A stretch of DNA of 64,000 bases from Lutibacter agarilyticus. GTDB lineage: Bacteria; Bacteroidota; Bacteroidia; Flavobacteriales; Flavobacteriaceae. The DNA is taken from contig NZ_FZNT01000007.1 of the NCBI RefSeq assembly GCF_900188235.1, positions 187,022 through 251,021 of the forward strand, given 5' to 3'. Shown here one piece after another: positions 244-15,197 of this stretch (its first letter is position 1; every line of letters begins with the position of its first letter). A program made the translations under genes and the position numbers. Below the pieces are notes generated by a model. That model saw nothing but the letters and a program-made list of their open reading frames with translations. It was not told the DNA's origin and ran no database searches.

Positions 244-630
244 TTACCATTCTATAGCATAATGAATCGGGAAAAGATTTTTTTTAACCAATTCTTCAAG
301 TTCTTCAGGGTTAAAAGGTTTGGTTAAGTAATCTTGCGCGCCAAGCTTGTAGCATTTGATGCGCTCTTTACTTTCTGCTCTTGCTGATAGCATTAAAAAA
401 GGAGTGTGTTTTGTGAATCCTCTTTTTCTTACGTTTGTTAAAAATTCATAACCATCCATTTTAGACATTTGAATATCGCTGATGATAAGGTCAGGTAGAT
501 TTCCTTCTAACCACTCAAGAGCATCAGATCCATTGTTTAGCGAAACAACATCGTAGTCTTGTGAAAGGAAATTCTCAAGCAAAAGGCAAATACTTATTTC
601 GTCATCTACTACTAATATTTTTTTCTTCAT
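244..630 (-). CDS. Single-domain CheY-like response regulator
   Basis: A 128-residue protein made of one receiver domain with no output domain. The acidic pair is D9-D10 (ILVVDDE), the predicted phosphoacceptor is D52 in ISDIQM, the switch Ser is in MLSAR and the conserved Lys is K104 in TKPF, so it should be phosphorylatable. Receivers of this size act as phosphate shuttles or by protein-protein contact. It lies 20 bp after the stand-alone HPt gene on the same strand, and these two, with the divergent NtrC-type regulator and the hybrid kinase further on, form a complete set of phosphorelay parts. Partnership with the HPt protein is inferred from position only. Confidence 0.9.
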   Translation of the reverse strand: MKKKILVVDDEISICLLLENFLSQDYDVVSLNNGSDALEWLEGNLPDLIISDIQMSKMDGYEFLTNVRKRGFTKHTPFLMLSARAESKERIKCYKLGAQDYLTKPFNPEELEELVKKNLFPIHYAIEW

Positions 631-650: not shown

Positions 651-1019
651 TTAAAAATCTGTATTCATTTTTTCAACAACCATTGTTGTTAAAGACGTTA
701 GTTTTTGTATGCTTGATTCTAATTCGGCTATTTCAAAATCTTTCAATAATAATGCCTCAAGTTGAAGTAATTCTTTTTGTAATTTTTCTACACCAAAATA
801 AGTAAGGGTAGGTTTCACTTTGTGTGTTAATTTTTTAATTGCTGGAAAATCTTTTTCAGAATAAGCTAAATTGATCTCTTTAACAGATTGAGAAACCTCA
901 TTCACAAAAACTTTAACCATTTTAGCTACCTGTTCTTGATTGCCACGGCACATTTTATCAATTAAAGTTAAATCGTATGGTTTATCTGCAGGCAGATCTG
1001 AGTTAGGGGTAAACTGCAT
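651..1019 (-). CDS. Stand-alone histidine phosphotransfer (HPt) protein
   Basis: A 122-residue, all-helical protein with the HPt signature around H66 (LTHKVKPTLTYFG). HPt proteins carry phosphate from a receiver of a hybrid kinase to a final response regulator. The motif resembles the HPt domain at the end of the hybrid kinase at 4541-8416 (AHKIKPSIDTLG): both have H-K-[VI]-K-P followed by a Gly seven or eight residues later. This suggests duplication or a shared partner receiver, which is an inference. It is the first gene of a minus-strand run with the CheY-like receiver 20 bp downstream, and starts 296 bp from the divergent NtrC-type regulator. Confidence 0.88.
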   Translation of the reverse strand: MQFTPNSDLPADKPYDLTLIDKMCRGNQEQVAKMVKVFVNEVSQSVKEINLAYSEKDFPAIKKLTHKVKPTLTYFGVEKLQKELLQLEALLLKDFEIAELESSIQKLTSLTTMVVEKMNTDF

Positions 1020-1315: not shown

Positions 1316-2662
1316 ATGGCTATTTATACTATTTTTATTGTTGAGGATGATCCTTGGTACGGTGAAATATTGAAACATCATTTAAGTCTAAATCCAGATT
1401 ATAAAGTGACACTGTTTTCAACAGGAAAAGAATTGCTTTCAAAAATGTGGCCTCAACCCGACTTGATTACCTTAGATTTCTCATTGCCTGATATTACCGG
1501 AGATAAACTTTTAAAAAAAATACAAGACATTAACCCAAGCGTTCCCGTTATCATGATTAGTGGCCAGGAAAACGTTTCTGTGGCTGTGAATTTGCTTAAA
1601 ATGGGAGTTAGTGATTATTTGATAAAAGATGATGCAACAAAAGATTTATTGTGGAATAGTATTTTGCGTATTCGAGAAACACAAACCTTAAAAAAGGAAG
1701 TTGAGCATTTGCGCGAAGAATTAGGTCAAAAATATTCTTTTGATAAATCTATTATCGGTCAGAGTGATGTTATGAAGCGTGTTTTTAAAATGATGGAGAA
1801 AGCTTTAAAAACAAATATTAATATTTCAATTACAGGCGAAACAGGAACAGGTAAAGAGTTAGTTGCAAAAGCAATTCATTACAATAGCTCCAGAAAAAAA
1901 AATAATTTTGTAGCAGTTAATATGGCTGCAATTCCTGAAGGTTTAATTGAGAGTACACTTTTTGGTCATGAAAAAGGTGCTTTTACAGGTGCCATAGCTC
2001 GTCAGTTAGGTAAATTTGAAGAAGCTAGTGGAGGAACTTTGTTTTTAGATGAGATTGCTGAATTAGATTTGAGTTTACAATCTAAATTGTTACGTGTACT
2101 TCAAGAAAGAGAATTGGTTAGGTTAGGAGGAAACCAGAATATAAAATTAGATGTTCGCTTAATTGTAGCAACGCATAGTAGCCTGGTAGAAGAAGTAAGA
2201 AAAGGAAATTTTAGAGAGGATCTTTTTTTTAGAATCATGGGCTTACCTTTAGAATTGCCTCCTTTGCGTGACAGGGAAAATGATATTTTAATTCTTTCAA
2301 AACATTTTTTAAATGAGTTCGCTAAAGAAAACAATATGGGAGTCATTCGTTTTTCAAAAGAAGCAAAAGATAAATTAATACAATATTACTTCCCTGGAAA
2401 TGTAAGAGAACTAAAAGCTATAGTTGAATTGGCTGCGGTTATTTGTGAAAATAATGAAATAACTGAAAATGATATCACCTACACACCAACAAAAAGTGGA
2501 GAAGTTTTTTTAACAAAGAAAAAAACATTAAGACAACATACTTGTGATATTGTAAAATATTATTTGAATAAAAATAATAATGATGTAATTGAGACTGCTA
2601 AATCTTTAGATATTGGCAAGAGTACTATTTACAAAATGATAAAAGACGGTGAATTAGTTTAA
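1316..2662 (+). CDS. Sigma-54-dependent response regulator, NtrC family
   Basis: A 448-residue transcription activator in three parts. Residues 1-120 are a receiver with the acidic cluster E10-D11-D12, phosphoacceptor D54 in TLDFSLPD and Lys104. Residues 145-385 are an AAA+ sigma-54 activation domain with Walker A GETGTGKE (about 174-181), the sigma-54-contacting loop GAFTGA (221-226) and Walker B LFLDE (242-246). The last 45 residues are a Fis-type helix-turn-helix. Phosphorylation should drive oligomerisation and ATP-dependent opening of RpoN promoters. It precedes the FIST/H-NOX/kinase genes by 169 bp and is the obvious candidate for their output regulator. No GG-N10-GC sigma-54 box was found in the gaps on either side, so its targets may lie elsewhere. 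Confidence 0.93.
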   Translation: MAIYTIFIVEDDPWYGEILKHHLSLNPDYKVTLFSTGKELLSKMWPQPDLITLDFSLPDITGDKLLKKIQDINPSVPVIMISGQENVSVAVNLLKMGVSDYLIKDDATKDLLWNSILRIRETQTLKKEVEHLREELGQKYSFDKSIIGQSDVMKRVFKMMEKALKTNINISITGETGTGKELVAKAIHYNSSRKKNNFVAVNMAAIPEGLIESTLFGHEKGAFTGAIARQLGKFEEASGGTLFLDEIAELDLSLQSKLLRVLQERELVRLGGNQNIKLDVRLIVATHSSLVEEVRKGNFREDLFFRIMGLPLELPPLRDRENDILILSKHFLNEFAKENNMGVIRFSKEAKDKLIQYYFPGNVRELKAIVELAAVICENNEITENDITYTPTKSGEVFLTKKKTLRQHTCDIVKYYLNKNNNDVIETAKSLDIGKSTIYKMIKDGELV

Positions 2663-2671
2663 ATTTATTTA

Positions 2672-2688
2672 ATTCCATATTTTGGAAT
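2672..2688. promoter_or_regulatory. Short inverted repeat upstream of the FIST gene
   Basis: ATTCCA and TGGAAT flank a 5-base spacer, just after the stop codon of the NtrC-type regulator and 144 bp before the FIST gene. It could be an operator, but six-base arms in such AT-rich DNA are weak evidence. Confidence 0.22.
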
Positions 2689-2831
2689 AATTTCTAAAAA
2701 ACGGAAAAAATACGAATGGGTTTTTAATTTAAATTACTGAAATATAAATGATTAGTCGTTATTTTTATTTTGGTATAATTTTAACGGTATGGTTAGATTA
2801 ATGAACAACCCATTAGTTAAATATTATTACT

Positions 2832-3971
2832 ATGAATACATCACTTTATAAGTTTTCTGAAAACGTTTGGATAAAGCATGAAAAAAGTCAATCATTAGAA
2901 GATGATAAGGCTAATTTAGTTTTATGTTTCGGTTCTAAAACGATGCTAGAAATTGATAGCATTTATTCGACAGTTAAATCTAAATTTCCTTCAGCATTAA
3001 TTTCAATGTGTAGTACAGCTGGAGAAATTTACCAAAATGATGTTTATAGTGATTCCTTAGTGGCAGTTGCAATGAGTTTTGATAAAACAAAAATTGAAGC
3101 AAAAACCATCAATATTAAAGATTATAACAATAGTTATCATGCTGGTATTGGCCTCGTTAAAAAAATAGCAAAAGAAAATTTAGCGTATTTAATGGTCTTG
3201 TCTGATGGAAGCTTAGTAAACGGAAGTGAACTAGTTAAAGGGTTGTCAACACAAATAAATAAAGATGTTTTAATTACTGGCGGACTAGCTGGTGATGGTG
3301 CCGATTTTCAGTCTACACTTTTAGGGTTGAACGAACAACCTAAAGAGGGTGAAATTATTGCTATTGGGTTTTATGGAAATAACTTAACTGTTGAACACGG
3401 GTCTCAAGGCGGTTGGGATATTTTTGGCTTAGAAAAAAGAATAACAAAATCTACAGATAATGTATTGTTTGAGTTAGGGGGTCAAAATGCATTGGAGCTT
3501 TATAAAAAGTATTTAGGGCCTGAATCAAAAAATTTACCTGGAGCTGCGCTTTTGTATCCTTTGTCAGTAGTTATTCCAGGAGCTAGCAAGCCTATTGTTC
3601 GTACCATTTTATCGATTAATGAAGAAGAAAAAAGTATGACATTTGCTGGAGATGTTCCCGTTGGTTCAAAGGTTAGGTTTATGAAATCTAATTTTACTAA
3701 ATTAACAAATGCTGCATCACAAGCGGCTTCTCAAACTTCACTTAAACGTAAAAATCAACCAGATTTAGCAATATTAATTAGCTGTGTAGGGCGTAAACTT
3801 GTTTTAGGTGAAAAAATTGATGAAGAAGTAAAAGCAGTAAGCAAGTCTTTCAATGATGAAACATTATTGGCAGGTTTTTATTCCTATGGTGAAATTTCAC
3901 CTTTTAATGAAGGAGGAGATTGCCAGTTGCACAATCAAACTATGACAATAACCTCTTTTTATGAGGATTAA
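2832..3971 (+). CDS. FIST domain (FIST_N/FIST_C) sensor protein
   Basis: A 379-residue soluble protein without signal peptide or membrane segments. The first half, to about residue 210, is FIST_N-like (MCSTAGEIYQNDVYSDSLVA, then GGLAGDGADFQSTL). The second half matches FIST_C (ISCVGRKLVLGEKIDEEVKA and FYSYGEISP near the end). FIST domains are predicted small-ligand sensors, suggested to bind amino acids or derivatives, and often sit beside kinases, cyclases or chemoreceptors. Here it opens a tight run with the H-NOX gene (23 bp gap) and the hybrid kinase, which suggests a second input to the same kinase. The ligand cannot be told from sequence. Confidence 0.9.
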   Translation: MNTSLYKFSENVWIKHEKSQSLEDDKANLVLCFGSKTMLEIDSIYSTVKSKFPSALISMCSTAGEIYQNDVYSDSLVAVAMSFDKTKIEAKTINIKDYNNSYHAGIGLVKKIAKENLAYLMVLSDGSLVNGSELVKGLSTQINKDVLITGGLAGDGADFQSTLLGLNEQPKEGEIIAIGFYGNNLTVEHGSQGGWDIFGLEKRITKSTDNVLFELGGQNALELYKKYLGPESKNLPGAALLYPLSVVIPGASKPIVRTILSINEEEKSMTFAGDVPVGSKVRFMKSNFTKLTNAASQAASQTSLKRKNQPDLAILISCVGRKLVLGEKIDEEVKAVSKSFNDETLLAGFYSYGEISPFNEGGDCQLHNQTMTITSFYED

Positions 3972-3994
3972 CTAATAATTTAAAAAAAATAACT

Positions 3995-4537
3995 ATGTAC
4001 GGTATTGTAAATAAAGCTATTCAAGATCTTATAACTGAAACTTTTGGCGAAGATAAATGGGATGCCGTAAAAGAAAAAAGCGCTGTTGATATAGACTTTT
4101 TCTTAAGTAATGAGCCTTATGACGATGATGTGACTTATAAATTGGCTGAAGCTGCAGCAGAAGTATTAGGTATTTCAGTAGGTGATGTTTTGCAAGCGTT
4201 TGGTGAATGGTGGGTATTAAAAACAGGTAAAGAAAAATATGGTGGTTTAATGGAGTCTGGAGGGAATAATTTGAAAGAATTTCTCGTAAATCTACCGCTG
4301 TTTCATAACCGAATTATGCTGATGTATCCTAAATTAACACCACCCGAATTTAAAGTAAGTAATATTGAAGAAAACTCTATTCATGTGCATTACCACTCTA
4401 AACGTGAAGGGTTACAGGAATTTGTTAGAGGTTTAATGAGTGGATTAGGAAAGATGTATGAAGTAGATACCGTTGTAGAATTATTACAAAGTCGCAATGA
4501 TGGTAGCACTCATGAAATATTCAAAGTAACCTGGTAA
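3995..4537 (+). CDS. H-NOX heme-nitric oxide binding protein
   Basis: A 180-residue stand-alone H-NOX domain of normal length. The proximal heme ligand is H104 in LPLFHNRIML, and the family YxSxR motif that holds the heme propionates is Y133-H-S-K-R137. The position aligned with distal-pocket Tyr140 of the O2-binding thermophilic H-NOX is Glu142, not Tyr, so by established structure-function rules it should bind NO but not O2 stably. Stand-alone H-NOX proteins usually control a neighbouring kinase or cyclase. The hybrid kinase starts 3 bp downstream and carries the HNOBA-like domain that accompanies H-NOX in animal guanylate cyclase. NO sensing is therefore strongly suggested, but unproven here. 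Confidence 0.95.
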   Translation: MYGIVNKAIQDLITETFGEDKWDAVKEKSAVDIDFFLSNEPYDDDVTYKLAEAAAEVLGISVGDVLQAFGEWWVLKTGKEKYGGLMESGGNNLKEFLVNLPLFHNRIMLMYPKLTPPEFKVSNIEENSIHVHYHSKREGLQEFVRGLMSGLGKMYEVDTVVELLQSRNDGSTHEIFKVTW

Positions 4538-4540
4538 AAT

Positions 4541-7500
4541 ATGGCTAACTCCTTTTCCTTAAATAAAAAACAATTAAATCGACTTTTCCCTTTTTATATA
4601 TTGATTGATAAGGAAATGAAAGTTATTTCCTATGGAGAATCAATAAGCAAATTATATGATTTTGAAAAAGTGGAAGTCTTTAATGAGTTTTTTAAAATAC
4701 CAAGACCCTACACTGAAATTAATTCTTTTAGTGATTTAATTAAATTAGAAGATCACTTAATTGTTTTAGAGTCTGTAACTTCAGAAAAACTAAAATTACG
4801 TGGTCAGTTTGAGTACCTTGAAGCAACCGAAAATATTATATTTGTTGGTTCTCCTTGGTTTGGCTCTATTGAACAATTAAAAGAAAATAATTTAATAATT
4901 AACGATTTTGCAAAGCACGATCCAATTATTGATTTGTTGAATGTGCTGAAATCACAAGAAATTACCAACGATGAACTTAAAGAGTTGGTTACAACAGTTG
5001 TGAAGCAAAAAAATGATTTAAAAAGAGCTAACAAGGAAGTTTATGATATCGCTTTATTTCCTCAGCAAAATCCTGATCCAAACATAAGGATAAATTATGA
5101 AGGTGATTTAATTCAAAATAATCCTGCAGCATCTAATCTTGATTTTATTGAATATGACGGTAATGTATATAGAAATGATTTGTTTTTTAAGTTTATCATA
5201 TCAAGTATTGATAAAAACATAAAAAGGTGGAGTTTTGAAGCTAGATCTAATGATATTGATTACTCTTTTGGTTGCGTGTCAATGCCTGAAGAAGGATATA
5301 TAAATATTTACGGTAGAGATATTACCGAGCAAAAAAGAAACCAACAAGAATTAGAAAAATTATCGCTTATTGTTCAAGAAACTACAAATGCGGTAATAAT
5401 TACAGATTCAAAAGGAAAACTGGAATGGGTAAATAAGGCTTTTGAAAAAATTACGGGTTATACCTTATCAGAAGTAAAAGGAGAAACGCCAGGTAAGTTC
5501 TTACAGGGAGAAAAAACAAACCCAGATAGCGTTGCTTACATGCGAGACCAGATAAAGAATTCATTACCTTTTACTTGCGAAGTTTACAATTATAAAAAAT
5601 CAGGTGAAGGTTATTGGTTGAGAATCAATGGCCAACCAATTTTTGATGCAAAAGGAAAAGTAACTCATTTTTTCGCTTTAGAAGAAGATATTACTTCTGA
5701 AAAAAAGGCACAAGAGAAAATAAAAGCAGCTGCAAGCAGAATGGCTTCACTAATAGCGAACCTTCACGATGGTATTTTATTAGAAAATAGAGACGAGACT
5801 GTTGCTTTAGCTAATAAACGCTATTGTGAGTTATTTAAAATAAACGTTGACCCAGAGGAATTGATAGGGGAAGATTGCTCAAATATGGATGCTAAATTCA
5901 AGCATTTATTTGTAGATCCAGAATTGTTCGTTTCAGGGATTTCTGAAAGACTAAAAAATAAAGAATTAGTTACAGGTGAAATATTAGAGTTGACTGATGG
6001 TCGTGTGTTTGAACGTGATTTTGTGCCAATTTGGAGTGACGGAACGTATGATGGGCATTTATGGATGTATAATGATATCACTGAAAAAATAGCTATTGAT
6101 AAAAAATTAGAAGACTTGCGTGTTTTCTATGAAAAGATTCTAGATAATATTCCTTCAGATATAGCTGTATTTGATACAAACCATCGTTACCTTTATATCA
6201 ATCCAAAAGGAATTAAAGATGAAGAGTTAAGGAAATGGATTGTTGGAAAAAAAGATGAGGATTATATAAAAAGAAGAAATAAACCAACTCATATTTTAGA
6301 AGGTAGACAAAAAGTGTTTAAGGAAGTCTTAGAAAGTAAGCAGCTTAAAAGTTGGGAAGAAGAGCTTAAACAAAAGGATGGTACTAGCAAATTTATGATG
6401 CGTAATATGTATCCTGTTATCAATAACAGTAATAAGGTTGATTTGGTAATAGGGTATGGTATTGATATTACCTATATTAAAAATATTCAGAAAGAAATTG
6501 CTAACAGTGAAAAAAGATACCGAGATGTTATCGATAATAGTTTAGCCATCATAACTACCCATGATATGGATGGGAATTTCATGAGTGTAAACCCAATGGT
6601 TAAAAAATTGTATGGGTATGATGATGATGAGGTAGTTGGACATTCCTTAAAAGACTTTATGCCGCTTGAAGACAAAGCATTATTTCAAGAAAACTATTTA
6701 GATAAAATAAAAGAAAATAAAGAGGCAACAGGTATTTTTAGAGTGCTTCATAAGGATGGGAATATTGTATATAGTTTTTATAACAACTATCTAAAAGAAG
6801 AAAAGGGAGAAAAGCCTTATGTAATAGGATTTGCAGTTGATATTACGAGTCGTATTTTAATGGAAAAAGAACTCAAAATAGCTAAAAAAGTAACAGAAGA
6901 ATTAGCCCAAACTAAACAGAACTTTTTAGCGAATATGAGTCATGAAATTAGAACTCCAATGAATGCTATTATGGGGATGAGTCGTCAATTACAGAAATCT
7001 GATTTGAACGACAAGCAACGAAGTTATTTAGAGACTATTTCTAGCGCTTCAGAAAACCTTTTGGTAATTATTAATGATGTATTAGATCTTGCAAAACTAG
7101 AAGCAGGTAAGCTAATATTTGAAAAAATAGGCTTCGATCCAAAACTAGTTATTGAAGGAGCTATGAAGGTGATGATGCATAAAGCAGAAGAGAAAGGTTT
7201 GGCACTTACAAATTCTTTCTTCGATGAACAATTGAGCTCCGTGTTGTTAGGTGATCCGTTCCGTATAAATCAAATTTTATTAAACCTTATTTCAAATGCT
7301 ATTAAATTTACAACAGTAGGTGGGGTTGATATACGTTTTGCGGTTACAAATGATAAAGAAGATTCGCAAAATGTTGAAATAAAAATAACGGATACTGGAA
7401 CAGGTATGGAACCTGAATTTTTGGAGCAATTATTTCAGAAATTTAGCCAAGAGTATGTATCTATGTCTAAAAACCATGGAGGTACCGGTTTAGGGATGAA

Positions 7501-8416
7501 CATTACGAAATCTTTGGTTGATGTAATGGGAGGTGAGATTTTGGTTGAAAGTAAAAAAGGCAAAGGAACCACGGTATATTTAAAGTTTAGTTTTGAAAAA
7601 GGAGGGCAGCAAGATATTCAGAAAAAGGATGCCTCATTTGTAGATAAGAATATTTTAAAGGATAAAAAAATATTAGTTGTTGATGATAATCAAATGAATA
7701 GAATGGTGGCGACTCTAATTTTAAATGAATATGAGGTTGTCGTTTCAGAAGTGGAGAATGGAGAGGAAGCAGTGAAGCATGTAAAGGAGCATCCATGTGA
7801 TTTAGTTTTAATGGACATACAAATGCCTGTTTTAAATGGTTATGAGGCAACAAAAGCAATTAGAAATGAATTAAAATCTAATATTCCAATTATAGCTTTA
7901 ACAGCAAATGCTATCAAAGGTGAAAGTGAAAAATGTCTTTCATTAGGTATGAATGATTATTTATCAAAACCTTTTGATGAAGATCAGTTTTTGTACATAG
8001 TTTCTTCTTTATTAGGGAAGTCTAAAGAAAAAAAATCAGTTATTTCTGAACATGAAAAAATAAATAAAGTACCGCTTTTTGATTTAAGTAAACTTGAGGG
8101 TATTGCTAAAGGTAATCAGGTTTTTATAAATAAAATGATTCAATTATTTATTGATGAAACCCCACTTTCAATTACTGAAATGAGGCAAGCTTATGAAGTA
8201 GGGGATTTTAAAAAGGTTGGAGAAATTGCCCATAAAATAAAACCATCGATAGATACTCTTGGAATTTATTTGTTGAAGGAAGAAGTACGTGAAATTGAAG
8301 TGAAAGCAGAAATCTATGGCGATTCGGAAGAATTGAGTGCTATGATTCTTTATTTAGAAAATACAATTAAACGCGTTTTAGTTGAATTGCAGAGGGTTAA
8401 AGCTAAAACAGTATAA
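4541..8416 (+). CDS. HNOBA-PAS hybrid histidine kinase with receiver and HPt domains
   Basis: A 1291-residue cytoplasmic hybrid kinase with no membrane segment. Residues 1-155 look like HNOBA, the domain next to H-NOX in soluble guanylate cyclase: FPFYILIDKEMKVISYG, then RGQFEYLE, IIFVGSPW and LIINDFAKHDPI in the expected order. A short helical linker leads to about five PAS-like units (roughly 172-265, 275-390, 395-515, 525-645, 650-770). HisKA has H801 in MSHEIRTP; the ATPase has N919 and the glycine boxes DTGTG and GGTGLG. The receiver (about 1041-1160) has D1092 in LMDIQMP, and the C-terminal HPt has H1231 in AHKIKP. The 3-bp spacing from the H-NOX gene implies translational coupling. Likely outputs are the NtrC-type regulator and the separate CheY/HPt pair. 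Confidence 0.93.
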   Translation: MANSFSLNKKQLNRLFPFYILIDKEMKVISYGESISKLYDFEKVEVFNEFFKIPRPYTEINSFSDLIKLEDHLIVLESVTSEKLKLRGQFEYLEATENIIFVGSPWFGSIEQLKENNLIINDFAKHDPIIDLLNVLKSQEITNDELKELVTTVVKQKNDLKRANKEVYDIALFPQQNPDPNIRINYEGDLIQNNPAASNLDFIEYDGNVYRNDLFFKFIISSIDKNIKRWSFEARSNDIDYSFGCVSMPEEGYINIYGRDITEQKRNQQELEKLSLIVQETTNAVIITDSKGKLEWVNKAFEKITGYTLSEVKGETPGKFLQGEKTNPDSVAYMRDQIKNSLPFTCEVYNYKKSGEGYWLRINGQPIFDAKGKVTHFFALEEDITSEKKAQEKIKAAASRMASLIANLHDGILLENRDETVALANKRYCELFKINVDPEELIGEDCSNMDAKFKHLFVDPELFVSGISERLKNKELVTGEILELTDGRVFERDFVPIWSDGTYDGHLWMYNDITEKIAIDKKLEDLRVFYEKILDNIPSDIAVFDTNHRYLYINPKGIKDEELRKWIVGKKDEDYIKRRNKPTHILEGRQKVFKEVLESKQLKSWEEELKQKDGTSKFMMRNMYPVINNSNKVDLVIGYGIDITYIKNIQKEIANSEKRYRDVIDNSLAIITTHDMDGNFMSVNPMVKKLYGYDDDEVVGHSLKDFMPLEDKALFQENYLDKIKENKEATGIFRVLHKDGNIVYSFYNNYLKEEKGEKPYVIGFAVDITSRILMEKELKIAKKVTEELAQTKQNFLANMSHEIRTPMNAIMGMSRQLQKSDLNDKQRSYLETISSASENLLVIINDVLDLAKLEAGKLIFEKIGFDPKLVIEGAMKVMMHKAEEKGLALTNSFFDEQLSSVLLGDPFRINQILLNLISNAIKFTTVGGVDIRFAVTNDKEDSQNVEIKITDTGTGMEPEFLEQLFQKFSQEYVSMSKNHGGTGLGMNITKSLVDVMGGEILVESKKGKGTTVYLKFSFEKGGQQDIQKKDASFVDKNILKDKKILVVDDNQMNRMVATLILNEYEVVVSEVENGEEAVKHVKEHPCDLVLMDIQMPVLNGYEATKAIRNELKSNIPIIALTANAIKGESEKCLSLGMNDYLSKPFDEDQFLYIVSSLLGKSKEKKSVISEHEKINKVPLFDLSKLEGIAKGNQVFINKMIQLFIDETPLSITEMRQAYEVGDFKKVGEIAHKIKPSIDTLGIYLLKEEVREIEVKAEIYGDSEELSAMILYLENTIKRVLVELQRVKAKTV

Positions 8417-10863
<2,447 letters not shown>

Positions 10864-10963
10864 ATTTGGTTTAAATTAATAATTAAAGAATTGGTTTTTG
10901 TTTCTTTTTTGAAAGTTTTTAAAGTTCATGAATTTGTAAACTCATGATTATTTTATTTTTAGT

Positions 10964-11005
10964 ATCAATAGCTTGAGTGAGTTATTGCTCACTCAAGCTA
11001 TTGAT
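10964..11005. repeat. Perfect 18-bp inverted repeat between two cassette genes
   Basis: The arm ATCAATAGCTTGAGTGAG (10964-10981) and its exact reverse complement (10988-11005) flank a 6-base loop. The hairpin lies 20 bp past the stop of the PKD lipoprotein gene and about 100 bp before the start of the T9SS protein gene in transcription order. On the minus strand it is not followed by a T tract, so it fits an mRNA-stabilising or processing hairpin, or partial attenuation, better than a simple intrinsic terminator. Confidence 0.8.
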
Positions 11006-11024
11006 TTATTTTAATTGATAATGA

Positions 11025-12869
11025 TTAAGGTGTTTTTTTAACAACTACATTGTCTATATTTAATATAGCTGAATTTGTACTATTAACTATTTCAAATAAA
11101 AGAGATATACCACCTTCTACTTGATTTGCATTAGCAGCAGTTGTAAACGTGTATGTTTTCGTTTCCCAAGATGTTGATAAAGAAGTTGTACTATCTGTAA
11201 GGGTGTGTAGCGTAGCTCCTACAGTTCCACCATCAGCACCTTCAGAAAATGCAAATGCTTTAAAAATTCCTCCCTCTCCAAAATCACCGCTAGATATAAT
11301 ATCAAATGTAACTGTATATGAGGTGTTAGGCTGAACTACACCTACTCCAAATCTTTCCATTTTAAGATGTACAGAAGGTCCCGGTTTCCCTGGAAGTTCG
11401 CCAGAGTTGCTACCTCCAATGGTATTGTTAACTGTAGTAGAAAGCAATGCTCCCTCAAAAAATTGCCAACAAACATCTCCAGCTTCAAAATCACCATTAG
11501 AAAGTAGCTCTCCAGCTGGTGGTGCTGGACAATCACTAGGTGGAGGGATTACACCACCGCCGTCGCCATAAAGTGTTAAGTCATCGAAATAATAAGTGTC
11601 GGTATTGTTTGCATTTAAATCAAAGAATATTACAATCTTATTAAATTTATTACTCTTATCACTTGCAAAAGGAAAAGATAATTCTTCCCATTCATTTGTT
11701 TTTGTTGTTGCAACTTCTAACTCAGTATTATTTCCTGCATTTCCTATTTCTTCAAGTTTAATTCTAACAGTAAAACCAGCTACTGCAGAGTATACTTTTA
11801 TTTTTAAACCTGAATTGGTATCAAAATCTAATTTACCATCCAAATCAATTTGGTTATTATCCCAAGGAAACTGTCCACTCTTATTAATTTTTCCAACTTT
11901 ACAAGAACTATTTACAGTATTATTAGCATTTGGATTGTCTACCCATTCAAAACCAGCGCCATCAGAAATAATGTTAGCACTTTGGTCTGTCATAAATGTA
12001 ACGTTTAAGTTTGAAGCACTCATAGATTCAGAAGTTTCTGGTGTACATGCATTAGGGTCTGTAACCGTAACTGTTCTTGTAACTTCATCTGCAGCATTAC
12101 CTGCGGCATCACTTACGTTGTAGGTGATGGTATATGTGCCTGCTGTATTTACATCTACAGCATCTCCAGCAACTACAATATCATCGGTAATATCTCCATC
12201 AACATCATCAGTAGCTGTTGCTCCTGGATCAGTAAATGTATCTCCAACCATCAAATTCATAGTAGCATCCCCAAGTAACGTGATTACTGGCGCTACAGTA
12301 TCTGCAGCAACAATAACTGTTCTTGTTCTTTCAGTTGCGGCATTACCAGCGGAATCACTGACATTGTAAGTTATAATATATGTACCTGCTGTATTTACAT
12401 CTACAACATCTCCTGCAACTACAATGTTAGCGGTAATATCTCCATCAACATCATCCATAGCTGTTGCTCCTGGATCAGTAAATGTACCTCCAATCATAAT
12501 ATTCATAGTTGTATCTCCAAGTAAGGTAATTACTGGTGCTCCAACATCTGAAATTACTATTATAGCTTCAGAAATATCAGAAGCTCCTGCAACATTGGTT
12601 GCTTTTAAAGTAACTATATACTCTCCTGCTGTATAGGTTTTTATTGGGTTCATTAGCGTAGAGCTAGTTCCGTCCCCAAAAGTCCAAAAATAATTTCTTG
12701 AATTTACAGAAGTATTTATAAAAGTTACGTCGCCTGTATCTGCATCAATTGTATAGGTGAAGCTTGAAATAACTTCAGGTAGTAATTCTTCATTTTCATC
12801 ACACCCTATAAAGGATATAGCTAAAAGCAATATTGAAATTTGCTTCACTTTTTTAATAAATTGTTTCAT
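11025..12869 (-). CDS. PKD/Ig-like carbohydrate-binding surface lipoprotein
   Basis: A 614-residue lipoprotein with a type II signal peptide and lipobox SFIGC (Cys about residue 23). Domain order: a PKD domain at about 35-105 (YFWTFGDGTSS); two near-identical Ig-like DUF5011-type repeats of 82 residues from residue 111 (VITLLGD, FTDPGATA, DVDGDIT, GTYTITYNVSD); a jelly-roll region near 280-440 ending TYYFDDLTLYG; and a C-terminal CBM4/9-like module (LLSNGDFEAGDVCWQ). No catalytic site is recognisable, so it probably binds glucan at the cell surface for the neighbouring hydrolases. It lies 24 bp downstream of the GH16 gene. The DUF5011-type repeats are also conserved in DNA, suggesting recent duplication. 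Confidence 0.82.
   Translation of the reverse strand: MKQFIKKVKQISILLLAISFIGCDENEELLPEVISSFTYTIDADTGDVTFINTSVNSRNYFWTFGDGTSSTLMNPIKTYTAGEYIVTLKATNVAGASDISEAIIVISDVGAPVITLLGDTTMNIMIGGTFTDPGATAMDDVDGDITANIVVAGDVVDVNTAGTYIITYNVSDSAGNAATERTRTVIVAADTVAPVITLLGDATMNLMVGDTFTDPGATATDDVDGDITDDIVVAGDAVDVNTAGTYTITYNVSDAAGNAADEVTRTVTVTDPNACTPETSESMSASNLNVTFMTDQSANIISDGAGFEWVDNPNANNTVNSSCKVGKINKSGQFPWDNNQIDLDGKLDFDTNSGLKIKVYSAVAGFTVRIKLEEIGNAGNNTELEVATTKTNEWEELSFPFASDKSNKFNKIVIFFDLNANNTDTYYFDDLTLYGDGGGVIPPPSDCPAPPAGELLSNGDFEAGDVCWQFFEGALLSTTVNNTIGGSNSGELPGKPGPSVHLKMERFGVGVVQPNTSYTVTFDIISSGDFGEGGIFKAFAFSEGADGGTVGATLHTLTDSTTSLSTSWETKTYTFTTAANANQVEGGISLLFEIVNSTNSAILNIDNVVVKKTP
12050..12539 (-). repeat. Two tandem 246-bp coding repeats (Ig-like DUF5011-type)
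   Basis: Two adjacent units with a period of 82 codons inside the PKD lipoprotein gene (about 12539-12294 and 12293-12050). They share most residues and long stretches of bases. This is an in-frame domain duplication that could expand or contract by recombination. Confidence 0.75.
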
Positions 12870-12893
12870 AATCTTTTAAATAATTAGTTTATT

Positions 12894-13751
12894 CTATTTA
12901 TACTGATTTTCATATACTCTTACGTAATCTACAAGCATGGTTTGAGGGAAAACGGTTTCATTATTTGGTGAACCAAGATAGTTTCCTCCAACAGCTAAGT
13001 TTATAATAATATTGAATGGATGATCGAAAGCCCATTCACCAGGTACATCACTTGGTGTAATTTGGTTGTACAATACATCATCTACATAAAAGTTTATATA
13101 ATCTGGAGCCCATTCAATACCAAAAACATGAAATCCTGTATCAAAACGGTCGTTAATCAAACTATAACTTTTTGTAATTCCTTCTCCTCCAGAATAGCCG
13201 TTGCCGTGTACAGTTCCGTGTACTATTGTTGGTTCTTGTCCACGATATTCCATAATGTCAATTTCTCCACATTCTGGCCAAACTACAGCAGGTCCACAAT
13301 TGTCACCTAATAGCCAAAAAGCAGGCCATAATCCTTGACCGTAAGGCAGTCTAATACTAGCTTCATAGCGACCATAAGTTTGTGCTACTTTGGATACAAT
13401 TCTTGCTGAAGTGTATTGAGATCCATTATAAGCTTCTTCTCTAGCGGTAATAATTAATACGCCATTTTGAACGGTTGCATTTTCACTTCGATCTGTGTAA
13501 TATTGTAATTCATTATTACCCCAACCGGCTCCAGCTTGAGTATCACTTCCATTACCAATATCGTAACTCCAAATTTCATTATTTAGGGCTCCATCGGTAT
13601 CAAACTCATCGGCCATTACTAATTTTTCAAAAGTAGTCACAGTCTGAGTTTCATCATTTGAACAGCTTGAAATAATTAAAATTACTGCCAATAGAGAAGA
13701 CATAAACATTAGAGGTTTATCCTTTACATTATGTTTTATTGTTTTGTTCAT
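12894..13751 (-). CDS. Glycoside hydrolase family 16 lipoprotein (laminarinase-like)
   Basis: A 285-residue lipoprotein with lipobox IISSC (Cys30) and a single GH16 catalytic domain. The active-site signature EIDIMEYRG places the nucleophile at E163, the assisting Asp at D165 and the acid/base at E168. WGNNELQYYT, GRYEASIRLPYGQGLWPAFW and the closing MLVDYVRVYE strand are typical of bacterial endo-beta-1,3-glucanases, so laminarin or a related beta-glucan is the likely substrate; specificity within GH16 cannot be settled by eye. It lies between two carbohydrate-binding lipoprotein genes on the same strand, with gaps of 24 and 33 bp, consistent with an operon. It is probably at the outer-membrane surface, since a Ser-Asn-Asp stretch follows the lipid Cys. 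Confidence 0.93.
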   Translation of the reverse strand: MNKTIKHNVKDKPLMFMSSLLAVILIISSCSNDETQTVTTFEKLVMADEFDTDGALNNEIWSYDIGNGSDTQAGAGWGNNELQYYTDRSENATVQNGVLIITAREEAYNGSQYTSARIVSKVAQTYGRYEASIRLPYGQGLWPAFWLLGDNCGPAVVWPECGEIDIMEYRGQEPTIVHGTVHGNGYSGGEGITKSYSLINDRFDTGFHVFGIEWAPDYINFYVDDVLYNQITPSDVPGEWAFDHPFNIIINLAVGGNYLGSPNNETVFPQTMLVDYVRVYENQYK

Positions 13752-13784
13752 TTTTATATGTTTTGAATTTTATAGTATGCTAAC

Positions 13785-15197
13785 TTATTCTGAATAGAAA
13801 TAAATATTATCCAAGTAAAAGCTTTCTAACGATGAAAAATTAATATTCTCATAAATAATCTGTCCAATATTATTTTTGTTTGTCATTGTTATTGGGAATT
13901 CTAGAGTAATCCAGTCTTTTTCAACCCAAATGGCTTTATCGAAAAATATTTGTTCTCTTGAATCATCTCCACCTCCTTGAGCATTATCTTCACCAAAATC
14001 TACAATAGTAATTAAAAAGTCCATGTTTGCAGGTACCTTTGGAATGTACATGTTAATGTGCACATTTGAATATTGTGATGCATCTACAGTTGGGTTTGAA
14101 AATTGATTTCCAACAAAATTAAAGTTGGTATAACTTAACATATTATTACCATCAATAGCAAAAAGAGTAGATTGTGTTGTTTGATAAGGTTCCCAATATC
14201 CATTAAAAAAGTCAACAGGAATACTATTGTATGTGTCACTAAAAATTGAAACAACATTATTTGGGTTTCTAATAGGTATTGGCGCTAAATCAAAATCACC
14301 AACTGAATTTATTGTTATGGAACCTTCAGCAGTTACATTAGCTAAACTTGCAGTTATTACAGCTGTTCCTTCACTTAAAACGTTAACAACTCCATATTCA
14401 TTTACAGTTGCAACACTTCTATCTGATGATTTAAAATCATAATAACTTGGTGCTGGACTTACAGTTTGGTTTAGTCCTGAGCCTAAATTAAATGTTTGTT
14501 TTAAATCTGACATTTGTGCTGTAACTCCAATAAAAGTTTCTAAGGTTAAATCTTCACCATTAAATATTGTTGGTCTTGGTTGCGCTATGGTACCTAATTT
14601 TTCAAACTGTAAATCATCAATCCAAAAAGTGTAGCCATAACCACCAGTACCTTGCGTGCCAGCAGAATACCAAAACATTCCTCTTTCATCAAATAGTTTA
14701 TCTGAATCTGGTATAGGAATAGTATATTTTACCCAGTTAGTACTTAAACTTAAATCAGATAAGGCTACTTGGTATTTATCTTCAAAAAAGTCGGTACCAA
14801 AACCCATTCCGCCAATAGTAACTCCTCGCGAAGCTTTAGCCCAAAAAGTTAATGCATCATATTCGGTTAAATCGCGTCCAGCGCCATCAATTCTAAAAAT
14901 AGCTCCTGCATAATTTCCTTCAGGATCATTTACGTTAGGTACATCTATACGCATAGAAGCTTGGCTTTCATAGCCTTCTTTTTCATCTACTGTCCAAGCA
15001 GTTGCTTTTGAGCCTTCAAAAGGGAAGTAAAAGTTACTACCAAGACCAATAGGTGAATCGGTAAAAATTTCACCTGTACTATTGTTTATTTCAAACTTTA
15101 CCTCATCTGAAATTGTTCTTTCACAACTAACTGTGCTAAAAGCAAGAAGAGCTGAAAGAAGTATAATTTTTGAATAAATAAATTTAATATTTTTCAT
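13785..15197 (-). CDS. Carbohydrate-binding lipoprotein with two CBM-like domains and a bacterial Ig-like domain
   Basis: A 470-residue lipoprotein with lipobox TVSC (Cys25). Residues about 45-200 form a jelly-roll CBM-like domain ending YTFWIDDLQFEK. A BIG_2-type Ig domain follows near 215-300 (SSDRSVATVNEYGVVNVLSEGTA in context; only fragments are cited). A second jelly roll, about 310-470, ends in LESFYLDNIYFYSE at the C terminus. The closing pattern [YF]-[FWL]-[FIL]-D-[ND]-[LI] recurs in other cassette proteins. No catalytic motif was found, so a glucan-capture role like that of surface glycan-binding proteins is inferred. It follows the barrel-fused glycosidase by 11 bp and precedes the GH16 gene by 33 bp. 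Confidence 0.78.
   Translation of the reverse strand: MKNIKFIYSKIILLSALLAFSTVSCERTISDEVKFEINNSTGEIFTDSPIGLGSNFYFPFEGSKATAWTVDEKEGYESQASMRIDVPNVNDPEGNYAGAIFRIDGAGRDLTEYDALTFWAKASRGVTIGGMGFGTDFFEDKYQVALSDLSLSTNWVKYTIPIPDSDKLFDERGMFWYSAGTQGTGGYGYTFWIDDLQFEKLGTIAQPRPTIFNGEDLTLETFIGVTAQMSDLKQTFNLGSGLNQTVSPAPSYYDFKSSDRSVATVNEYGVVNVLSEGTAVITASLANVTAEGSITINSVGDFDLAPIPIRNPNNVVSIFSDTYNSIPVDFFNGYWEPYQTTQSTLFAIDGNNMLSYTNFNFVGNQFSNPTVDASQYSNVHINMYIPKVPANMDFLITIVDFGEDNAQGGGDDSREQIFFDKAIWVEKDWITLEFPITMTNKNNIGQIIYENINFSSLESFYLDNIYFYSE

Follow-up and report, generated by a model that had tools for sequence, protein, structure and literature searches.

Gene content and domain architecture of the locus

The stretch of 64,000 nucleotides from the genome of Lutibacter agarilyticus analysed here (contig NZ_FZNT01000007.1, positions 187,022 to 251,021; hereafter the window) contains three adjacent open reading frames (ORFs), all on the + strand in the ORF list, which encode a FIST protein, a stand-alone H-NOX protein and a hybrid histidine kinase (Table 1). 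The original prediction, made from the letters of the sequence, had proposed just this trio, which is indeed present, but it had left out of the locus a sigma-54 regulator, an Hpt gene and a single-receiver gene that lie beside it. The H-NOX gene ends 3 nucleotides (nt) before the kinase gene starts, and the same spacing is found in 7 of the 14 junctions listed. The source genome, 4.10 Mb in size, has one gene each for HNOB (PF07700), HNOBA and FIST (PF08495), all at this locus, and a single match for RpoN.

Sequence comparisons firmly support an HNOBA domain (PF07701), the PAS-type domain of soluble guanylate cyclase (sGC), at the N-terminus of the kinase. The full-length protein scores 79.6 bits (E = 3e-22; cut-off 23.4), and residues 1-170, the segment for which a profile check had been proposed, score 87.9 bits on their own (E = 8.9e-25), so that the predicted resemblance stands. 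The three motif blocks on which it was based (RGQFEYLE and LIINDFAKHDP among them) correspond to residues 16-32, 87-94 and 118-128, and the phmmer alignment with sGC alpha-1 (residues 14-149) covers all three in order. The closest PDB sequences to this region are those of sGC alpha-1 (E = 3.8e-9 and 7.8e-8), followed by a bacterial histidine kinase PAS domain (2p04, E = 2.4e-7, aligned with residues 6-110; 2p08, E = 4.6e-7) and by sGC beta-1 (E = 1.5e-5 to 3.3e-5). The guanylate cyclase catalytic family is absent among the 16 Pfam matches of the protein, which places it outside sGC; instead, HisKA, HATPase_c, receiver and HPt domains, together with an H-box (SHEIRTP) in the translation, make it a hybrid histidine kinase. 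The receiver and HPt had been foreseen, whereas the roughly five PAS units of the original prediction reduce to four detectable by Pfam behind HNOBA; residues 166-271 gave no match in the Pfam search. As HPt is a separate gene of 113 amino acids (aa) in the near relative L077 (our loci and genomes are numbered with the prefixes L and G), its fusion to the kinase is a local variant.

The H-NOX protein matches HNOB with 164.1 bits (cut-off 25.5) and carries both the proximal heme ligand, His104, and the YxSxR motif, as Tyr133, Ser135 and Arg137. The nearest solved proteins are Nostoc Alr2278 (E = 2.5e-49) and sGC beta-1 (E = 8.5e-30 and 1.4e-28), the remaining bacterial H-NOX structures following at E = 5.5e-11 and weaker. 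Nostoc H-NOX and sGC bind nitric oxide (NO). We also note that PDB entry 6bde is the H-NOX of K. algicida by its title in the fold search, while 6bdd and 6bde are named as an aldolase in the sequence search, a label that is apparently wrong. As far as can be judged from sequence, a marine-type bacterium bears the front half of the animal NO receptor as two neighbouring genes.

The FIST protein belongs to its family without difficulty (FIST 143 bits, cut-off 23.2; FIST_C 126.2 bits, cut-off 28.5), and three of its residues are widely shared among 90 FIST sequences (C318 in 89, C364 and H367 in 85 each). Its AlphaFold2 model (predicted local distance difference test, pLDDT, 91.3; predicted template-modelling score, pTM, 0.89) finds its best PDB fold match in FBXO22, a eukaryotic FIST protein (E = 3.8e-11, TM 0.55). 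NosP proteins are FIST proteins which report NO to a kinase, according to excerpts of PMC12570481 and, with some reserve, of PMC8846402. By the NosP profile (NCBIfam NF041558) our protein is kin to NosP rather than a member, and by this kinship it may report NO as well.

The reading we favour, to which we assign a probability of roughly 0.6, is that the locus encodes a phosphorelay for the sensing of NO which is based on the sensor half of sGC, split into two genes, with FIST as a second, NosP-like sensor.

Table 1. Coordinates of the genes, domains and sequence elements of the locus within the window
Feature	Position	Strand	Basis
Single-receiver gene	244-630	-	ORF, Pfam
Hpt protein gene	651-1019	-	ORF, Pfam
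NtrC-type response regulator: receiver, sigma-54 AAA+ with GAFTGA, HTH	1316-2662	+	ORF, Pfam
Intergenic stretch 5' of FIST: TTCC-N7-GGAA palindrome, sigma-54-like element by eye	2663-2831	+	sequence
FIST protein, 379 aa (FIST and FIST_C)	2832-3971	+	ORF, Pfam, NosP profile
Stand-alone H-NOX, 180 aa, Nostoc/sGC beta-1-like, heme His104, Y133-x-S135-x-R137	3995-4537	+	ORF, Pfam, alignment
H-NOX stop TAA and one codon, then kinase ATG in the same frame	4535-4540	+	sequence
Hybrid histidine kinase, 1291 aa: HNOBA-PAS x4-HisKA-HATPase-receiver-HPt	4541-8416	+	ORF, Pfam
HNOBA (sGC PAS-type) domain, kinase residues 5-167	4553-5041	+	Pfam, phmmer
Four Pfam-detectable PAS domains, residues about 273-385, 407-516, 534-644, 665-771	5357-6853	+	Pfam
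HisKA and HATPase_c, residues 792-856 and 904-1018	6914-7594	+	Pfam
Receiver domain of the kinase, residues 1044-1151	7670-7993	+	Pfam
HPt domain of the kinase, residues about 1199-1264	8135-8332	+	Pfam

Distribution of the arrangement

The family sample comprised 397 genomes, 146 of them with H-NOX, and 141 of the 150 H-NOX matches, the window included, were read as loci; the nine left out are those of G162, G280, G311, G250, G195, G409, G146 and G425 and a broken second match of G159. A kinase lies next to H-NOX in 140 of these 141 loci and FIST within 6.5 kb of it in at least 79, a minimum because some contigs stop close by. HNOBA is rare, occurring in two loci, the window and L098. Thus, of the three-gene combination for which the original prediction had sought a survey, the kinase and FIST turn out to be common company for H-NOX, and it is HNOBA that is uncommon. 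Among the 139 ordinary loci, that is those lacking HNOBA, FIST is within 6.5 kb of H-NOX in 77 and the heme His is present in 138; not one of the 138 kinases adjoining an ordinary H-NOX matched the HNOBA profile. The sole H-NOX without the heme His among 154 aligned has Tyr instead (L112:7014-7562). The idea of a hidden HNOBA in the ordinary kinases of Flavobacteriaceae was rejected, the profile-profile probability being 0.2% for a cluster of 137 N-termini and 0.4% for the one left over. When HNOBA was compared in this way with the PAS domains of the window itself the values were 0.1-0.9%, so a distant PAS kinship might still hold by that comparison.

In the phylum set, PF07701 has matches in 48 of 395 genomes, of which 33 cover only the rear of the profile (from about position 123 or beyond, the helix behind the PAS core). 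We counted HNOBA only where the start of the profile was matched, which by table reading gives 15 of 395 genomes, our own included. By the same yardstick it is present in 3 of 120 relatives (G009, G020 and G021, all of the same genus); a single-sequence search of contigs returned one relative only, Lutibacter sp. HS1-25, and a search for HNOBA in plasmids gave no match. Elsewhere in Bacteroidota, kinases combining HNOBA, PAS, receiver and HPt stand beside H-NOX in L083 and L089 (by Pfam) and L098 (by profile and phmmer).

A second set of loci, picked for having HNOBA and hence not random, contributed 13 further H-NOX genes beside HNOBA, bringing the total to 15. One of these, L094, duplicates L085, but its kinase is only 214 aa long: the H-NOX copies at L085:5440-7904 and L094:5853-7042 (genome G800) have identical DNA and lie about 57 kb apart, and the kinase ORF of L094 stops just behind HNOBA. 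The proximal His and the Tyr of YxSxR are retained in all 15 H-NOX proteins beside HNOBA kinases, while Thr replaces Ser135 in two and Arg137 is missing in three.

H-NOX and HNOBA remain paired across two kinase backbones

The H-NOX proteins next to HNOBA kinases are of a type of their own. Their identity to the H-NOX of the window is 35-100% (n = 15) as against 18-25% in the other 139, with no overlap between the ranges, and in a FastTree phylogeny of 152 distinct H-NOX sequences (without L094 and one duplicate) the 14 that are paired with HNOBA form one side with support 1.0. The kinases themselves divide differently. Of the 14 full HNOBA kinases beside H-NOX, eight have a catalytic backbone like that of the window and six (L080, L082, L084, L085, L087 and L090, all from another genus, g155, presumably Flavobacterium) have one like that of the ordinary operons, which is shared by all 138 ordinary kinases; scores against both catalytic types agree with this split of the g155 six.

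The g155 loci are therefore informative piece by piece. Their H-NOX proteins have a mean identity of 56% (34-72) to five loci of the window clade versus 24% (13-29) to the 139 ordinary ones. For the catalytic domain the relation is reversed, with 28% (23-31) to the window clade versus 50% (26-58) to the ordinary kinases (133 over 400 aa in this comparison), and FIST behaves likewise, with 44% (41-47) to the window clade versus 56% (17-65) to 77 ordinary sequences. The trees of 144 catalytic domains and of 90 FIST proteins set the window clade off from the rest with support of 0.952 and 0.965, respectively, and the g155 six side with the ordinary sequences in both, never grouping with the window clade. 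Their gene order, receiver - H-NOX - kinase - FIST - kinase, is also that of many ordinary operons. What is observed directly is thus that, beyond the genes, their domains and the heme and phosphorelay residues, the H-NOX type is co-inherited with HNOBA; this suggests that H-NOX and HNOBA remain partners on both kinase backbones while the catalytic domain and FIST differ. That pairing is our best evidence, albeit indirect, that the two work together.

A bolder version may be entertained tentatively, at somewhat worse than even odds: the split sGC sensor (H-NOX and HNOBA) would be a portable two-part cassette, which was transferred in one piece from one kinase backbone to another, unrelated one and is coupled by a docking face of HNOBA (for example at Arg55, see below), with FIST as an independent, probably NO-linked input belonging to the backbone. 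If true, the bacterial cassette would offer a separable model of the activation of the animal receptor by NO.

HNOBA proteins without H-NOX

In 2003 Iyer and colleagues reportedly described HNOB and HNOBA genes as neighbours in bacteria. This holds at the window, with its 3-nt junction, but is not a general rule since, among the loci read, 5 HNOBA proteins out of 20 (L086, L088, L091, L092 and L093) have no H-NOX at the locus; searches for HNOB through the whole of the five genomes concerned (G620, G781, G666, G553 and G604) gave no match. In L088, between the receiver and HNOBA kinase genes, two stretches (L088:7306-7514) match the lost H-NOX gene in the proper order, one against the gene of L082 and one against that of L084, each scoring above all 300 shuffles; with other references, 1 of 300 (L087) and 20 of 300 (L080) shuffles scored as well. 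Similar scars sought in L086 and L091 were not clearly above shuffles.

These loci bear upon a different reading, in which the kinase takes its main signal from FIST, and H-NOX is a dispensable modulator added to a FIST-kinase core. It is consistent with L088 and L091, where the HNOBA kinase adjoins FIST in genomes without HNOB, with the retention in L088 of stretches matching the missing H-NOX gene, and with the presence of FIST alongside both kinase backbones. However, L086, L092 and L093, which have HNOBA but no H-NOX, lack FIST beside the kinase too; 62 of the 139 other H-NOX genes have no FIST within 6.5 kb; and in 4 of the 15 loci with H-NOX and an HNOBA kinase (L081, L083, L089 and L094, the last being the second, cut copy) FIST is not in the fetched stretch. 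We consider such a primacy of FIST unlikely.

Three HNOBA residues follow the presence of H-NOX. Arg55 is found in 15 of 15 proteins beside H-NOX and 0 of 5 without it, and Asp127 and Glu140 each in 15 of 15 versus 1 of 5. They were chosen post hoc among 36 conserved columns, and L094, a copy, counts as one of the 15; the differences may reflect drift, two of the five H-NOX-less proteins being distant (21-23% identity to the window).

The regulator, its possible target sequences and the NO context

The regulator gene ahead of FIST has a sigma-54 interaction domain (227.8 bits, Pfam). Of the eight loci with the window-type backbone, six have a like regulator, as the neighbour of FIST in four (the window, L077, L078 and L098) and as the direct neighbour of H-NOX in two (L083 and L089); it was not seen in L079 and L081. 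This NtrC-type regulator is likely the output of the relay. The palindrome TTCC-N7-GGAA 5' of FIST is conserved in the window, L077 and L098. By eye, a degenerate element of the -24/-12 type, GG-N10-AC, is also discernible there, and in L098 it reads GG-N10-GC, complete only in that locus. Palindrome and sigma-54-like element together are weak candidates for sequences through which the regulator might act. In four relatives (L077:1113-3454, L078:957-3296, L079:2309-4689, L098:11243-13670) the Hpt gene is separated from that of the regulator or FIST by two sugar-nucleotide genes, by eye a UDP-glucuronate decarboxylase and a UDP-glucose dehydrogenase, for which the window has no room at the corresponding place.

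Elsewhere in the source genome (L238:5544-13102, G000:C22), a cluster led by Rrf2 comprises, by eye, norC, norB, norQ, norD, a RIC-like Fe-S repair gene, a hemerythrin/PAS-like gene and norE. These names are our reading; NCBIfam lends support to two genes only, Rrf2 (family over the cut-off) and that of the repair protein, which at 156.9 bits falls short of the cut-off of 204.7. The cluster is likely an NO-removing or NO-respiring set; a search of the genome for copper nitrite reductase (TIGR02376) gave no match. The cluster is relevant to the proposal that the system works as described but that its physiological ligand is oxygen, redox state or heme supply instead of NO. According to excerpts of PMC8738867, heme-free H-NOX can sense redox state and some H-NOX groups lack the heme His, which lends this proposal some substance. 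Against it stand the putative NO reductase of the source genome, the heme ligand and YxSxR of the window H-NOX and the identity of its nearest solved relatives, NO-binding Nostoc H-NOX and sGC, and we regard it as improbable and NO as the better candidate.

A proposed NO-responsive phosphorelay

Under the favoured reading, NO would bind the heme of the stand-alone H-NOX, and NO-bound H-NOX would dock on the HNOBA domain of the kinase, the docking replacing the covalent neighbourhood of H-NOX and HNOBA within a single sGC chain. This would change the activity of the kinase, with either sign of effect conceivable. Phosphate would then probably pass from the His of the kinase to the Asp of its receiver, from there to the HPt His and finally to the Asp of the NtrC-type regulator next to it in the locus, which would drive its target genes together with sigma-54. 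FIST would be a second, NosP-like auxiliary sensor, perhaps of NO as well, that acts on the same kinase at a site other than HNOBA.

Several results weigh against parts of this scheme. First, the FIST protein falls short of the NosP equivalog cut-off, with 67.5 bits versus 450 over a nearly full-length match (17-354 of 379 aa). Second, the mirror-tree correlation of H-NOX with HNOBA (r = 0.78 over 14 loci, 0.67 over the 11 with FIST) is not above that of HNOBA with FIST (0.72 over the 11 loci); for H-NOX with FIST it is 0.29 over the 11 loci with FIST. Third, a co-fold of H-NOX and HNOBA from six sequences (pLDDT 63.3, pTM 0.47) is too poor to define an interface, and in Foldseek searches with it sGC beta was matched over both domains only at a root-mean-square deviation of about 17-22 A. 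Fourth, in the five genomes without H-NOX, HNOBA must do something else. Finally, a scripted scan of the intergenic stretches for the sigma-54 consensus found none before FIST and one match in 1020-1315, and the palindrome has one exact site in the genome, the window's own, with 5 sites at up to 2 mismatches versus 3 in the control, so that no regulon emerged.

The want of a usable interface in the co-fold, and of direct evidence of interaction for the source genome, would fit a reading in which H-NOX and FIST respond to NO as a pair of their own, directed at other targets, with the kinase as a mere operon neighbour. This is hard to reconcile with a kinase adjoining H-NOX in 140 of 141 loci, or with an H-NOX type that follows the N-terminal domain of the kinase across two backbones, and strikes us as very improbable.

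Relationship to known systems

The locus is a variant of a bacterial arrangement that is already known, and the distinct architecture claimed for it in the original prediction was overstated. HNOBA kinases were already known from bacteria, since a domain of this kind from a histidine kinase of Nostoc punctiforme (2p04, 2p08) has been solved; as excerpts of PMC2904703 and PMC8196705 have it, this gave the first sGC-type PAS structure and a model of the sGC PAS dimer, and those of PMC8196705 describe a parallel PAS dimer shared by sGC and the bacterial kinase domain. FIST near H-NOX has likewise been published, the excerpts of PMC8738867 naming it as a frequent neighbour of H-NOX in one group, and kinases like that of the window recur in L083, L089 and L098. 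Among the open-licence articles searched, none dealt, by titles and the starts of abstracts, with this combination of HNOBA, H-NOX and histidine kinase.

The Nostoc punctiforme kinase shares with the window a PAS/H-NOXA, or HNOBA-type, domain in a bacterial histidine kinase; HPt, the FIST gene and the sigma-54 regulator are features of the window, the comparison being by the PAS domain only. Animal sGC has the same succession of H-NOX and HNOBA (against human beta-1, E = 1.4e-28 for H-NOX and 3.3e-5 for HNOBA; against alpha-1, E = 3.8e-9 for HNOBA), whereas the window has two genes, a histidine kinase output and no guanylate cyclase catalytic domain. In the HnoX-HnoK and NosP-NahK systems, too, kinase control comes in trans from a stand-alone H-NOX or FIST protein, but in the excerpts of PMC8846402 and PMC12570481 those kinases act on cyclic di-GMP enzymes or a degenerate one, unlike the window with its HNOBA kinase and neighbouring sigma-54 regulator. 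The common operon of Flavobacteriaceae, exemplified by L105 (receiver - H-NOX - PAS kinase - FIST - kinase - LytTR regulator), also brings H-NOX, kinase and FIST together; however, H-NOX in operons of this type is only 18-25% identical to that of the window, and the L105 kinase has PAS, HisKA and HATPase but by Pfam no HNOBA.

What is new is comparative, the pairing across backbones making a useful natural experiment. In sGC, a large fused enzyme, it is difficult to study on its own how NO-bound H-NOX signals through the PAS domain, namely HNOBA. In these bacteria each of the two belongs to a protein of its own, and Bacteroidota provide pairs that match as well as pairs that do not, so that docking and activation lend themselves to mixing experiments; the natural pairings and losses of H-NOX also point to residues for mutation. 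Further, a locus in which a single kinase adjoins two candidate NO sensors would reveal the way such inputs are combined.

Beyond the kinase gene, on the - strand of the window (8806-15197), lie, by eye, genes for large secreted-type proteins and a likely beta-glucanase (12894-13751), which probably constitute a glycan-use cluster.

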